Assembly (NCBI RefSeq): GCF_006937785.1
Contig: NZ_SJEE01000001.1
Location: 248,001 to 312,000 of the forward strand
From: Pseudanabaena sp. UWO311
GTDB lineage: Bacteria; Cyanobacteriota; Cyanobacteriia; Pseudanabaenales; Pseudanabaenaceae
Length of the DNA stretch: 64,000 bases
Direction: 5' to 3'
Shown here: one piece after another, positions 5,025 through 60,767 of the stretch
How the letters are laid out: each line of letters opens with the position of its first letter
How positions within the stretch are numbered: the stretch's first letter is position 1
Program-made: the position numbers and the translations under genes
Notes under the pieces: model-generated
What the model saw: only the letters and a program-made list of their open reading frames with translations
The model's database searches: none
Told to the model about the DNA's origin: nothing

Positions 5025-5081
5025 CCAAAACCCAAATAATAACGGTAGCGCGAAGCACTACCGTTATTATTTGGGTTTTGG
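5025..5081. repeat. palindrome, 24-bp arms
   Basis: CCAAAACCCAAATAATAACGGTAG cgcgaagca CTACCGTTATTATTTGGGTTTTGG. Confidence 0.9.
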
Positions 5082-35232: not shown

Positions 35233-35293
35233 AAACCCAAAATTTTTATTGAAAGTTTTACTTTGTAAAACTTTCAATAAAAATTTTGGGTTT
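35233..35293. repeat. perfect palindrome, 29-bp arms, TTT loop, divergent intergenic region
   Basis: AAACCCAAAATTTTTATTGAAAGTTTTAC-TTT-reverse complement. Confidence 0.95.
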
Positions 35294-37049: not shown

Positions 37050-37108
37050 ATCAAACCCAAATAAATGAAGGCGGCGCTTCGCGCCGCCTTCATTTATTTG
37101 GGTTTGAT
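37050..37108. repeat. perfect palindrome, 28-bp arms, TTC loop
   Basis: ATCAAACCCAAATAAATGAAGGCGGCGC-TTC-reverse complement. Confidence 0.95.
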
Positions 37109-47949: not shown

Positions 47950-48355
47950 AGTGGATCGCCCCTAACCAAATATCAACAATCCGCGATCGCCCCTTCATCT
48001 CCTCACAACAAAGCGATCGCCCAACCAAATATCAAAAACTAGCGATCGCCCCCAACCAAAATCAACAAACAGCGATCGCCCCCAACCAAATATCAATAAA
48101 CAGCGATCGCCTATTCATATCTCCACAAAAAGCGATCGCCCCCAACCAAATATCAATAAACAGCGATCGCCTATTCATATCTCCACAAAAAGCGATCGCA
48201 TCCACCAAATATCAACAACAGCGATCGCACATTCATCTCCTTAGCACCAAGCGATCGCACTCAATCAAATATCAAAAACTGCGATCGCCCCTTCATCTCC
48301 CACAAAAAAGCGATCGCCCCTAATCAAAAATCAGCAAGCAGCGATCGCTTATCTA
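47950..48355. repeat. alternating ~30-bp HIP1-bearing repeat array
   Basis: 13 GCGATCGC octamers about every 30 bp with two alternating spacers (~ccccaaccaaatatcaacaaaca and ~ccccttcatctccacaaaaa); 48071-48130 is exactly repeated at 48131-48190. Confidence 0.9.
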
Positions 48356-48373: not shown

Positions 48374-49591
48374 CTACAAATGTAAATTTGGAGGTTCTTT
48401 AGTTGTTGTATGGCAAGTGAACGGATTATCTTCTACAAATAAAGAATCTAAATAGTGATCGGGGATTTTTGTGAAGTCTCTTAAAAAATTTACATGCTTT
48501 TTCTTGATTTCATCTTCTGACAAGGATTCATAATGTACTTCTATTCGATAAATGATTCCATCAAAATACATCAAATCTGATTCCTTTTCATCAGATTGCT
48601 TGCCAATGAAAATCCTATCTTCTTTGCCATCGGGATTTGTTTCAGGATACCTGATCGAATGTTTTCTACACTTACGAAGTTTAAAATCAGAAAGATTTAA
48701 ATGGGACCATATGTGTCCTCTCTCCATCTTATCTATAATATTTTTGCGTTCGTCTAGGTATATACAGTTATCATAAAACTGAATAGTTCCTTCATTAATA
48801 TCCTTGTCATTTTGAGTAATGGTAAATGCAAGGAAGTGGTTTTTATTGTCATCAATCTTAGCTCCAGAACCAAAGTCACCTGAATGAGCATGAATATTTG
48901 GTCTTAGGTGATTTACTGGTGGAATATATGCTTTAAATTCACCAAGATAATGCTCTGGGTAGTCTCCTTTGATAAGATTATCAGTGCTTTTTGGAACTCT
49001 ACTCTTATCTCCTTGTATGATTATTTTATTGCCATTTTCGTCAATATCAATCGGTAATCCTTCTATGTAAAATTCAAAATGATGCTCATCAATAACTTTA
49101 AACTCCTTTTTAGGCTTGTTATATTGAGAAATAATAGTCCTATGATTTTTATAAGCAATAGAATTATCGTCAGGTTCGGAAGCTCTTAACCAAACCAAGA
49201 CAGTCATATTTTTGCTATAAATTATTCTCTTTTTGACTGATATATATTCCTTTCTCCGCATCGTAAAGTTGTATCCCCAGCCTGCCCGTACTAATTCTTC
49301 TCGAAGGGATTGTAGCAAAGAGAAGCTAGCATTATTAACAGCATCAAGCTCAAATAAGCCTTCTGGACTAGGTAACTTACCACGATTCCTCTTGAATTTC
49401 TGAAAACTCATCCATGGAAATTCATCAATAGTGCGTTTGTCTTGACTACGGATACTTAAAATCTTGGGTGGTTTTACATATTCATATTCCTTACTTTCAT
49501 TAATTGTAGATAATATTTTATCTAACGCTTCAGGGCTATCTTTTACCAGAGCAAGCAAGAGTTGGATTATTGATACGATGAATTCATTCAT
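48374..49591 (-). CDS. hypothetical protein (405 aa), no recognised domain
   Basis: Long ORF in TA-rich accessory region. Confidence 0.6.
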   Translation of the reverse strand: MNEFIVSIIQLLLALVKDSPEALDKILSTINESKEYEYVKPPKILSIRSQDKRTIDEFPWMSFQKFKRNRGKLPSPEGLFELDAVNNASFSLLQSLREELVRAGWGYNFTMRRKEYISVKKRIIYSKNMTVLVWLRASEPDDNSIAYKNHRTIISQYNKPKKEFKVIDEHHFEFYIEGLPIDIDENGNKIIIQGDKSRVPKSTDNLIKGDYPEHYLGEFKAYIPPVNHLRPNIHAHSGDFGSGAKIDDNKNHFLAFTITQNDKDINEGTIQFYDNCIYLDERKNIIDKMERGHIWSHLNLSDFKLRKCRKHSIRYPETNPDGKEDRIFIGKQSDEKESDLMYFDGIIYRIEVHYESLSEDEIKKKHVNFLRDFTKIPDHYLDSLFVEDNPFTCHTTTKEPPNLHL

Positions 49592-54534: not shown

Positions 54535-54589
54535 AAAACCCAAATAGTGAGAGGCGGCGCTTCGCGCCGCCTCTCACTATTTGGGTTTT
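54535..54589. repeat. perfect palindrome, 26-bp arms, TTC loop
   Basis: AAAACCCAAATAGTGAGAGGCGGCGC-TTC-reverse complement. Confidence 0.95.
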
Positions 54590-57272: not shown

Positions 57273-57785
57273 TTAAATAATTTTGCCAAAAATCACTAAG
57301 CTTTGATCGATGCCATCTAATTCAGCGATTTCTGGCAAAAAGCCCCATTCCGTAAAGCCTAATCTTTCAAATAGACGACGACTGGCGGCATTATGGGCAA
57401 ATACAAATCCGACCAATTTAGTAATATTCAACTTAGGGCATTGGGCGATCGCATGACTAAGCAACTTTTTGCCGATTCCCTTGCCTTGAAACATCGGATC
57501 TATATAAATGCTTACCTCGGCAGTTTTGTGATAGGCAGGGCGACCATAAAACATCTGCAAGCTTAACCAGCCAATGATCTTCTCATTTTGATCGCTTTGA
57601 ATATTGCGATCGCCGATTGTGATCACCCAAACAGGATAGCGATCTTCATGCGATCTGAACCAAGTGCGACGGCTCTCAACTGAGATTGGTTCGAGATCGG
57701 CAGTGGCAAGACGACTAGGAATAGCCGCATTATAAATTTGAATAATTGCGGATAAATCAGCCTCTACTGCCACCCGAATTTGCAT
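57273..57785 (-). CDS. GNAT N-acetyltransferase (phosphinothricin acetyltransferase-like)
   Basis: IRVAVEADLSAIIQIYNAAIPSRLATADLEPISVESRRTWFRSH...YIDPMFQGKGIGKKLL. Confidence 0.9.
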   Translation of the reverse strand: MQIRVAVEADLSAIIQIYNAAIPSRLATADLEPISVESRRTWFRSHEDRYPVWVITIGDRNIQSDQNEKIIGWLSLQMFYGRPAYHKTAEVSIYIDPMFQGKGIGKKLLSHAIAQCPKLNITKLVGFVFAHNAASRRLFERLGFTEWGFLPEIAELDGIDQSLVIFGKII

Positions 57786-57882
57786 GGACTTATACTCCCA
57801 AAGTTCTTTGTTGCTTCAAAAAATTGCGCCGCCCATCTTGGAAATAGCTATAAAAAAATATAGCGCTTTGCTCTCTTATACC

Positions 57883-57915
57883 AAAACACAAAATGGCTAC
57901 GCCATTTTGTGTTTT
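57883..57915. repeat. perfect palindrome, 15-bp arms, TAC loop
   Basis: AAAACACAAAATGGC-TAC-GCCATTTTGTGTTTT. Confidence 0.95.
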
Positions 57916-57928
57916 TAAAACCCTTATG

Positions 57929-57988
57929 GGGTTTTAATACCAATTCACAAAAGTGTCGCGACACTTTTGTGAATTGGTATTAAAACCC
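57929..57988. repeat. 60-bp perfect palindrome with no spacer
   Basis: GGGTTTTAATACCAATTCACAAAAGTGTCG|CGACACTTTTGTGAATTGGTATTAAAACCC. Confidence 0.96.
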
Positions 57989-58034
57989 AGAAATTAAAAG
58001 CGACGCATAGCGTCGCTTTTAATTTCTGGGTTTT
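57982..58034. repeat. perfect palindrome, 25-bp arms, ATA loop, overlapping the previous
   Basis: AAAACCCAGAAATTAAAAGCGACGC-ATA-GCGTCGCTTTTAATTTCTGGGTTTT. Confidence 0.95.
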
Positions 58035-58068
58035 GGTTTATGATCACATAGTTACTCATCTCCTTTTT

Positions 58069-58866
58069 ATGGAATTATTTGCTGGGTTACTCACCACGGT
58101 TTTAGGTTTAGCAGGCGCACCAGGAATTGCAATTGATAAAGTTGCGACGGACTTTTTGCGTGGGCAAATCGTACGGGCTGATGTCCTAGAAGTACGAGTT
58201 GATAATGCTCCTAACTATCAGATTCTTTTGGGTAACGTCGATCGCATCCGTGTTGCAGGTCGTGGAGTTTACGTTTTAGAATTTTTGCGAATTGATCAGG
58301 TGGATCTGGAAACTGATCCGATTAGCATCGACCCTAACTTGTTACAATCTGGCAAAATTGTCTTGCGTCGTCCGTTGCAGGCTGCTGCGCGTGTCGTTTT
58401 GCGTTCCGAAGATATTAATACGGCTTTGCGATCGCCAAACGTTCAACCTTCCTTTAGAAATCTCAGCATTGATATTACTGGAACTAATAAAAATCCCGAA
58501 ATTCTTGATCTAATCAATCCAGAAGTTACTTTTTTGGAAGGCGATCATATTCGCCTCTCAGCCACATTAAAATCGCAACCAACAGCAACTAAGCCTAAAG
58601 TCACAAGTCTCGATGTCTCCGTGAATGCGCAGATAAAGACTATTGGAGGAACCAAACTACAAATTATCAATCCTAAAATTGAATTGGCAGGAACGCCAGT
58701 GCCCGATCGCATTGCCAGAGCTTTTACAGAAGGATTGAATAAAGTCTTAGATTTGCGGCAATTAGAAAGCAAAGGCATCACAGCGCGAGTTCTCAAACTA
58801 GAACTTACAGAAGGAAAAATGCAAGTGATTGGCTTTGCCAAGATGGATTCTCTTCCTGAGCAATAG
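58069..58866 (+). CDS. DUF2993 family protein
   Basis: LRGQIVRADVLEVRVDNAPNYQILLGNVDRIRVAGRGVYV...; start moved from 58033 (TTG inside a palindrome arm). Confidence 0.75.
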   Translation: MELFAGLLTTVLGLAGAPGIAIDKVATDFLRGQIVRADVLEVRVDNAPNYQILLGNVDRIRVAGRGVYVLEFLRIDQVDLETDPISIDPNLLQSGKIVLRRPLQAAARVVLRSEDINTALRSPNVQPSFRNLSIDITGTNKNPEILDLINPEVTFLEGDHIRLSATLKSQPTATKPKVTSLDVSVNAQIKTIGGTKLQIINPKIELAGTPVPDRIARAFTEGLNKVLDLRQLESKGITARVLKLELTEGKMQVIGFAKMDSLPEQ

Positions 58867-58874
58867 TTGCAACC

Positions 58875-60767
58875 ATGAGTCAATGCCTCAACCCTAACTG
58901 CAATTTTCAAAATTCAGATCCCAGACTTAGTTTTTGTAGTCAATGTGGCTCAAAGCTAAAGATTGGCGATCGCTATCGGGCGTTGAAAATTCTTGGGCAA
59001 GGTGGCTTTGGCAGAGCTTTTATTGGTATTGATGAAGCTCTGCCTTCTCAGCCACACTGTGTCATTAAACAGTTCTTTCCTGCTGATCTCAGTAGCGCAG
59101 TGAAAGCAGCCGAATTATTTCAACAGGAAGCTATTCGCCTTGATGACTTGGGCAAACATCCACAAATACCGACATTATTCGCCCATTTGGAACATGATGG
59201 TTGCCAATATCTGATCCAAGAATTTGTTGATGGGCAGGATCTGTTAAAGGAACTTCGAGAACAGGGAGCTTTTAGTGAAGCCAAAATTCGGATGCTGTTG
59301 GCAGACTTACTGCCAGTTCTGCAATTTATACACGATCGCAACGTAATCCATCGAGATATCAAGCCCGAAAATATTATCCGTAGGCGATCGCCCAGCACCT
59401 CTGGCTCTTTATCTAACTCCATGGCGACTGGTAATCATGTGTTAGTTGATTTTGGCGCAGCAAAATTCGTGACGGCAGCCGCAATGATGGAGACAGGAAC
59501 CCGCATCGGGAGTGCAGTGTATGTTGCCCCAGAACAAATGCGAGGGAAAGCAATATTTGCTAGTGATCTCTATAGTTTGGGTGTGACCTGTATCCATCTG
59601 CTGACTAATGTGTCACCATTTGAGTTAATGGATATCGACGGAACTTGGATTTGGCGTGATTTTTTAGAAAACACTTCCATTAGCCCTGTCCTTGGTCAGG
59701 TTTTAGATCGCATGATTGCCTCAGCTCCAAGTCATCGCTATCAGACGGCTCAAGCAGTGTTAAGCGATCTGAAAAATTTAACTTCATCATCCTCGCAATC
59801 GAATAGACCAAGATTCCAAAGACCAACTTACTTGAAAGCAGGTGCGAAAACACTGATTACTCCGATCGCTCCACCCAAATCTCAACCAACTCAAGCGATC
59901 GCACCGTCGTTATCTCAATTTTCATTTGAGACAGCCATAGTTACAGTTAATCGGAATGCGATTAACAAATTAACTCAAAATCAGTTGCAAATTAGCACAA
60001 GACAAAAAACTGGAAGAATTTATATTGAGAATCTCGGTAATATTCAAGGTAAACCGATTGGGCTGGAGATGGTATTCATCCCCGCAGGAAGATTTCAGAT
60101 TGGGTCGCCGATCAATGAGTTAGAACATAGCGAGGAAGAAAGTCCACGCCATATCGTGAACATCCCCCCATTCTTTATGTCTCGATTTCCAATCACACAA
60201 AGGCAATGGAAAATATTGATGGATAATAATCCTGCAATTTTTATAGGCAATAGCGATCGCCCTGTGGAAACTGTGACTTGGGATGACACCCAGCTTTTTT
60301 GTCAGAAACTAGCAGAGCGAACTGGTCGCCCCTATCGCTTGCCCAGTGAATCGGAATGGGAATATGCTTGTCGAGCAGGAACGTTAACAGCTTTTGGTTT
60401 TGGGGAAACGATCGCTGCAAATTTGGCTAATTATAATAGTGCAAGTCCCTACAAATACGCACCACAAGGTGTCAGTAATTCCTCAACATCTGAAGTTGGG
60501 ACTTATCCTGCCAATGGCTTTGGTTTACATGATATGCATGGAAATGTTTGGGAATGGTGTGCAGATAATTGGCATGACGATTATGACCTTTTGCCCAAGG
60601 ATGGCAGTGCTTGGACTCAAGGAGGTGATCTCAGTTGTCGAGTAATCCGTGGAGGCTCTTGGCGCGATCCTGCTCATTATTGTCGTTCGGCTAAGCGTTC
60701 CCGAAATGCAACAAGTCAAGGCGATCGCAGCACAGGTTTTCGCATTGCTGTTACTTTAACAATTTGA
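58875..60767 (+). CDS. zinc-ribbon + Ser/Thr protein kinase + formylglycine-generating-enzyme-like (SUMF1) domain
   Basis: CLNPNCNFQNSDPRLSFCSQCGSKL; VIHRDIKPENII; FIPAGRFQIGSPINELEHSEEESPRH...MHGNVWEWCADNWHDDY...VIRGGSWRDPAHYCRSAKR. Confidence 0.93.
   Translation: MSQCLNPNCNFQNSDPRLSFCSQCGSKLKIGDRYRALKILGQGGFGRAFIGIDEALPSQPHCVIKQFFPADLSSAVKAAELFQQEAIRLDDLGKHPQIPTLFAHLEHDGCQYLIQEFVDGQDLLKELREQGAFSEAKIRMLLADLLPVLQFIHDRNVIHRDIKPENIIRRRSPSTSGSLSNSMATGNHVLVDFGAAKFVTAAAMMETGTRIGSAVYVAPEQMRGKAIFASDLYSLGVTCIHLLTNVSPFELMDIDGTWIWRDFLENTSISPVLGQVLDRMIASAPSHRYQTAQAVLSDLKNLTSSSSQSNRPRFQRPTYLKAGAKTLITPIAPPKSQPTQAIAPSLSQFSFETAIVTVNRNAINKLTQNQLQISTRQKTGRIYIENLGNIQGKPIGLEMVFIPAGRFQIGSPINELEHSEEESPRHIVNIPPFFMSRFPITQRQWKILMDNNPAIFIGNSDRPVETVTWDDTQLFCQKLAERTGRPYRLPSESEWEYACRAGTLTAFGFGETIAANLANYNSASPYKYAPQGVSNSSTSEVGTYPANGFGLHDMHGNVWEWCADNWHDDYDLLPKDGSAWTQGGDLSCRVIRGGSWRDPAHYCRSAKRSRNATSQGDRSTGFRIAVTLTI

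Follow-up and report, generated by a model that had tools for sequence, protein, structure and literature searches.

Prokaryotic MITEs, among them the cyanobacterial Nezha and those of Anabaena PCC 7120, are short, non-coding, multi-copy elements with terminal inverted repeats and target duplications, located mostly in intergenic DNA (PMC10969869, PMC3733652). The target duplication is TWA in PIF/Harbinger elements, TNA in NuwaII and ANT in bacterial IS5 (PMC4482050). Quasipalindrome mutation by template switching is established in E. coli (PMC7202029), and template switching has also been proposed as a source of RNA hairpins and stems (PMC8794818). Here we describe a locus of Pseudanabaena sp. 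UWO311 at which an element of the first kind appears to have undergone a mutation of the second.

The locus lies in a stretch of 64,000 nucleotides, referred to as the window. A first-pass annotation had described a chain of palindromes within it, and inspection of the sequence to the base confirms this anatomy. Positions 57929-57988 form an exact 60-bp palindrome with 30-bp arms, zero spacer and the centre TCGCGA; 57982-58034 form an exact palindrome with 25-bp arms and the 3-nt spacer ATA; and 57883-57915 form an exact hairpin with 15-bp arms and the 3-nt spacer TAC. AAAACCC at 57982-57988 is common to the 60-bp palindrome and the 25-bp-arm hairpin. The predicted fold (-71 kcal/mol, z = -18) adds a fourth, small hairpin, AAAACCC-TTATG-GGGTTTT at 57917-57935, between the 57883-57915 hairpin and the 60-bp palindrome. 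Perfect spacer-free arms of 30 bp are expected ~1e-13 times per window and ~1e-11 times per genome, and a chance origin of the 60-bp palindrome is excluded. Nor is the palindrome isolated: perfect hairpins with arms of 12 bp or more number 31 in the window versus 0 in three simulated windows, and comparison with the ORF list places nearly all of the 31 in intergenic DNA. The features of the locus are as follows.

57273..57785, minus strand: GNAT acetyltransferase gene, divergent neighbour (Pfam PF00583).
57876..57878: left copy of the target duplication, TTA; a single TTA stands at the empty site in the relatives G018 (L061) and G016 (L063).
57879..57979, plus strand: MITE copy, 101 bp, TACCAA...TTGGTA; one of at least 91 parsed own-genome copies.
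57883..57915: MITE hairpin 1, 15-bp arms, triloop TAC; TAC/GTA loop inversion and compensated arm changes among copies.
57917..57935: small central hairpin, its right arm common with the 60-bp palindrome (predicted fold).
57929..57988: 60-bp palindrome, that is, MITE hairpin 3 prolonged through the element end, the target duplication and 6 bp of ancestral host flank (comparison with the family consensus and other extended copies).
57929..57934, plus strand: microhomology GGGTTT, probable switch point; found in standard copies as well as in the reverse-complemented right flank.
57935..57941, plus strand: rewritten TAATACC in place of the family's GGTTTTT (alignment with other copies).
57980..57982: right copy of the target duplication, TTA (sequence; empty sites in relatives).
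57982..58034: older host hairpin, AAAACCCAGAAATTAAAAGCGACGC-ATA-..., predating the MITE; loop TAT in relatives (same hairpin without adjoining MITE in G018 and G016).
58039..58044, plus strand: conserved -10-like TATGAT, ~30 bp upstream of the LmeA-like ATG; putative promoter element (25 genus orthologues).
58069..58866, plus strand: LmeA-like phospholipid-binding protein gene, downstream neighbour (Pfam PF11209).

When the region was searched against the genome, its first 101-105 bases recurred in dozens of copies, with 83-92% identity among the full-length matches listed, and at least 91 distinct copies were parsed, taken stretch by stretch. Alignment of the copies gives a standard element of the form TACCAAAACACAAAATGGC-TAC-GCCATTTTGTGTTTT TAAAACCCTTACNGGGTTTGGTTTTT AATTCACNNAAGTGT-NNNN-ACACTTNNGTGAATTGGTA, where the terminal inverted repeats TACCAA/TTGGTA are exact and a wider similarity, TACCAAWWCACAAAA, is present at both ends. 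Length is 101 bp in 74 of the 91 own-genome copies. An exact 3-bp target duplication flanks 70 of the 91, compared with a mean of 31 and a maximum of 48 for shuffled flanks (5000 shuffles); these 70 take the form TNA (TAA 36, TTA 28, TGA 4, TCA 2), and the match reaches a fourth base in one own copy only. The element thus has the terminal inverted repeats, the target duplication with an empty site and the short, non-coding, multi-copy character of a MITE, and we hold this identity with high confidence. Together, TNA duplications and terminal inverted repeats would be marks of mobilisation by a DDE transposase. The family is present in all 25 Pseudanabaena genus mates searched; other genera of the same taxonomic family gave no good match, and one distant genome was marginal (E = 9.5e-4). 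Across the GTDB genome collection, the symmetrical form of hairpin 3 was found in 30 stretches, several of them from genus mates also used elsewhere in the analysis, with records under the names Pseudanabaena, Phormidium tenue FACHB-1050 and an Oscillatoriales MAG. Rfam gave no match in the window. The genome also holds free-standing 41-bp palindromes, TACCAAAACACAAAATGGC-NNN-GCCATTTTGTGTTTTGGTA, that lack the rest of the element (L131-L140) and have TNA flanks that are direct in some and inverted in others.

The history of the site was read from orthologous GNAT/LmeA loci in 25 genus genomes, own included. In G018 and G016, the two closest relatives with the locus, the site is empty and reads unbroken as ...GCGCTTTGC(G/T)CTC(TA)TTAAAACCCAGAAATTAAAAGCGACGC..., with the junction CTC-TTA-AAACCC, at the point where two copies of TTA enclose the element in the window. 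Because both relatives have the empty site, the MITE insertion is young and followed the split from them. The hairpin at 57982-58034 is ancestral, as it is found in both relatives without an adjoining MITE; its loop is ATA in the window and TAT in both relatives, an inversion. In G018 another MITE copy lies 40 bp upstream, itself flanked by TTA repeats and evidently an independent insertion. Across the genus, MITEs and hairpins have landed repeatedly beside the conserved box at 58039-58044, which reads TATGAT in 24 and TACGAT in 1 of the 25 orthologues, usually 30 bp upstream of the LmeA-like start codon.

The first-pass annotation had further presented the palindrome as an unstable structure whose persistence was notable. 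This part of it does not stand, as the insertion is missing in the two closest relatives and is therefore young, and that a 60-bp palindrome of such recent origin persists calls for no special explanation. In vitro, SbcCD cuts hairpins equivalent to 20-36 bp palindromes, and the E. coli work on lethality in vivo concerned palindromes of 246-480 bp (PMC4245961). The annotation had pointed to SbcCD gene content, and the genome encodes two SbcD proteins over the cut-off and two SbcC-like proteins under the curated cut-off, the latter likewise in most control genomes; loss of SbcCD was rejected on these grounds as a reason for persistence.

Comparison with the family reveals how the symmetry differs from that of other copies. 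The standard right-hand hairpin (hairpin 3) reads GGGTTTGGTTTTTAATTC...GAATTGGTA and is asymmetric outside AATTC/GAATT, with GGTTTTT on the left and GGTA, TNA and host DNA on the right. The window copy has the left arm GGGTTTTAATACCAATTC, which reverse-complements the right arm together with the adjoining host DNA TTAAAACCC, the join being at GGGTTT. That is to say, GGGTTT-TAATACC on the left side is the reverse complement of GGTATTA-AAACCC on the right. The left arm is the copy: the empty site shows the right flank TTAAAACCC to be ancestral, and it is the left arm that deviates from the standard GGGTTTGGTTTTTAATTC. Copying of the right flank from the element was rejected, as the relatives carry the same flank at the empty site, and our confidence in the direction of copying is high. 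At the presumed switch point, GGGTTT is a 6-bp microhomology that standard copies have in common with the flank in reverse complement. The palindrome owes its lack of a spacer to the loop CGCG; among the copies scored, this loop is confined to the window copy, and it is one base from the CGCC/GGCG of others.

We consider it very probable that a young MITE insertion was followed by overwriting of the hairpin-3 arm through a template switch, which would have produced the 60-bp palindrome. The 101-bp non-autonomous element entered a TTA directly beside the older hairpin in the divergent GNAT/LmeA intergenic region; its left arm would at that stage have read GGTTTTTAATTC. In a later replication round, the polymerase would have stalled at the right-hand quasipalindrome of the element, and the nascent 3' end, after ...GGGTTT, would have re-annealed to the GGGTTT that the right flank carries in reverse complement (AAACCC). 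The nascent strand would then have copied TAATACCAATTCACAAAAGTGT off the opposite arm and returned to the original template, such that the asymmetric GGTTTTT became a mirror image of the right end of the element, the target duplication and host DNA. A change of the central CGCC/GGCG-type loop to the self-complementary CGCG, together with the rewritten arm, would account for the spacer-free 60-bp palindrome. Template switching during replication is a good inference as to mechanism, and the locus displays what it predicts, namely complementarity apparently raised by copying of the opposite arm and flank, and microhomology at the putative switch point. The same product might also come from gene conversion between the arms or from processing of a cruciform. 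On the proposed reading, the 60-bp palindrome would be a product of DNA instability and not its survivor, its perfect symmetry having been made by the kind of hairpin-templated copying that renders palindromes unstable.

Arm extension of at least 4 bases recurs in 20 of 129 scorable copies, 4 of these in the own genome; copies outside it were picked for symmetrical ends, so the frequency there is biased and only the own-genome 4 of 91 approximates a rate. The left arm in 18 of the 20 extended copies mirrors 3-13 bases of that copy's own host flank past the element end, as in TTTGTTCATA/TATGAACAAA (L118) and AAGGTTC/GAACCTT (L115). Of the other two, L159 is extended no further than the terminus of the element, and in L100 the direction is reversed: internal sequence of the element reappears in mirror image at its right end. 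Across 19 extended copies, the flank match averages 6.8 bases versus 1.7 with flanks swapped among copies. Microhomology is found at the junction of most events and, besides the GGGTTT of the window, amounts to at least 2 bp in most under a mismatch-tolerant and somewhat generous scoring; by eye, two or three events have 0-1 bp. Loops likewise occur in both orientations among own copies, with GTA 27 and TAC 20 for hairpin 1, and the hairpin-3 loops form reverse-complement pairs (TGTC 32 / GACA 13; CGTC 10 / GACG 4). In the hairpin-1 arms of 86 own copies, compensated double changes (69) slightly outnumber single-sided ones (62), where ~8 double changes are expected by chance; 31 of the 69 fall at one position and represent a subfamily, not independent events. 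Both the loop inversions and the compensated changes fit template switching at quasipalindromes.

Other readings of the palindrome were weighed against this record. Selection might maintain perfect pairing in a regulatory or terminator structure, a reading to which the strong predicted fold of the palindrome region, the terminator-like matches on both strands at the neighbouring hairpin and the position ~50-110 bp upstream of the conserved -10-like box lend some appeal. A palindrome between divergent genes, however, is where no terminator is needed; relatives without the element here still keep the downstream gene, and MITE copies sit at unrelated loci with extended arms that vary with each flank. 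We regard such a role as unlikely, and most likely the 60-bp palindrome arose by mutation of a mobile hairpin and serves no dedicated function.

A solo hairpin-3 unit (TACCAATTC...GAATTGGTA), free-standing elsewhere, could alternatively have transposed into or beside an older element. Solo copies of hairpin 1 and hairpin 3 with symmetrical ends do exist, and direct TNA repeats flank some solo hairpin-1 copies (L132, L135, L136, L140). At this locus, however, the TNA is inverted around hairpin 3 (TAA...TTA) and direct around the whole 101-bp element (TTA...TTA), the inverted match continues for 6 more flank bases, and hairpin 3 occupies exactly its usual position in the composite element. Insertion of a solo hairpin was rejected on the inverted TNA and is judged quite improbable.

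The small size, intergenic location, restriction to the genus and hairpins at both ends could also suggest an element of REP/REPIN type mobilised by a RAYT (HUH) transposase or a hairpin element derived from IS200/IS605. REP/REPIN elements are likewise high-copy extragenic palindromes, but carry GTAG/CGTC tags (PMC3733652, PMC3116915). The Pseudanabaena MITE has ends of TACC/GGTA with no GTAG or CGTC tag, and its clear 3-bp TNA duplications, like its terminal inverted repeats, are indicative of a DDE transposase; we hold this origin to be very improbable. REPs are not known to have target duplications. An assembly or library foldback artefact, which the first-pass annotation had named as a possible undoing of the palindrome, is scarcely credible even for a draft genome of 61 contigs, as the symmetry ends exactly at element and microhomology boundaries and comparable extended copies occur in 13 genus genomes, own included, so that the same event type recurs across many independently assembled genomes.

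The palindrome created, as we propose, by template switching sits in a genus rich in hairpins. Counted in small, arbitrary 40-kb samples (window and L266-L285), perfect hairpins whose arms reach 14 bp or more number 7.5-27.5 per 100 kb in Pseudanabaena and 45 per 100 kb in the window, compared with none in three same-family genomes and 0-2.5 per 100 kb in four more distant ones. The window hairpins mostly end in GC-NNN-GC triloops, for example GCTTCGC/GCGAAGC and GCAAAGC/GCTTTGC. The sequence d(GCGNAGC) forms unusually stable DNA mini-hairpins, which is a lead for these tips. A second hairpin family is present at many intergenic sites of the genus, in the window at 5025-5081, 35233-35293, 37050-37108, 54535-54589 and 57982-58034, with a conserved outer AAACCC...GGGTTT, GC-rich tips and middle arms that are highly variable yet perfectly paired. 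Elsewhere in the window, a tandem array of ~30/60-bp repeats at 47954-48348, most units with the HIP1 octamer GCGATCGC, adjoins the ORF at 48374-49591, and 58875-60767 encodes a protein kinase domain fused to an FGE-sulfatase (formylglycine-generating enzyme-like) domain.

Tentatively, and with more doubt than conviction, we suggest that unusually active hairpin-templated copying in Pseudanabaena creates, lengthens and perfects intergenic palindromes, with mobile hairpins as seeds and hairpin density as its footprint. An odd palindrome has become a resolved mutation for which ancestral state and direction are known and a switch point is proposed, and ~19 natural replicates in one genus are available of a process mostly studied with reporters. 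Should the hairpin density of the genus share this origin, Pseudanabaena would let one study in nature how perfect hairpins arise and are kept, and why compensated stem changes need not imply selection.

Both the element and the proposed mutation are of known kinds; their combination and its recurrence were not found described in the literature searched, and a search on Pseudanabaena repeats found no paper. Within the PIF/Harbinger-IS5 superfamily (PMC4482050), the TNA duplication of the MITE resembles the PIF/Harbinger TWA and the NuwaII TNA. No transposase with the ends of the MITE was found, the sole PF13359 transposase gene of the genome being without matching ends, and inspection by eye of the own-genome matches listed gave no element ends paired 0.3-3 kb apart as an autonomous partner might have. 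The general features of Nezha and the PCC 7120 MITEs (PMC10969869, PMC3733652) are shared, but the present element appears to stand apart through three internal hairpins and some arms overwritten from host flanks. The mutation itself resembles quasipalindrome template switching (PMC7202029; PMC8794818) in that an imperfect hairpin appears perfected from the opposite arm, with microhomology and loop inversion. In contrast to the mutations described there, the change seen here recurs across a mobile family and brings unique host flank into the element.
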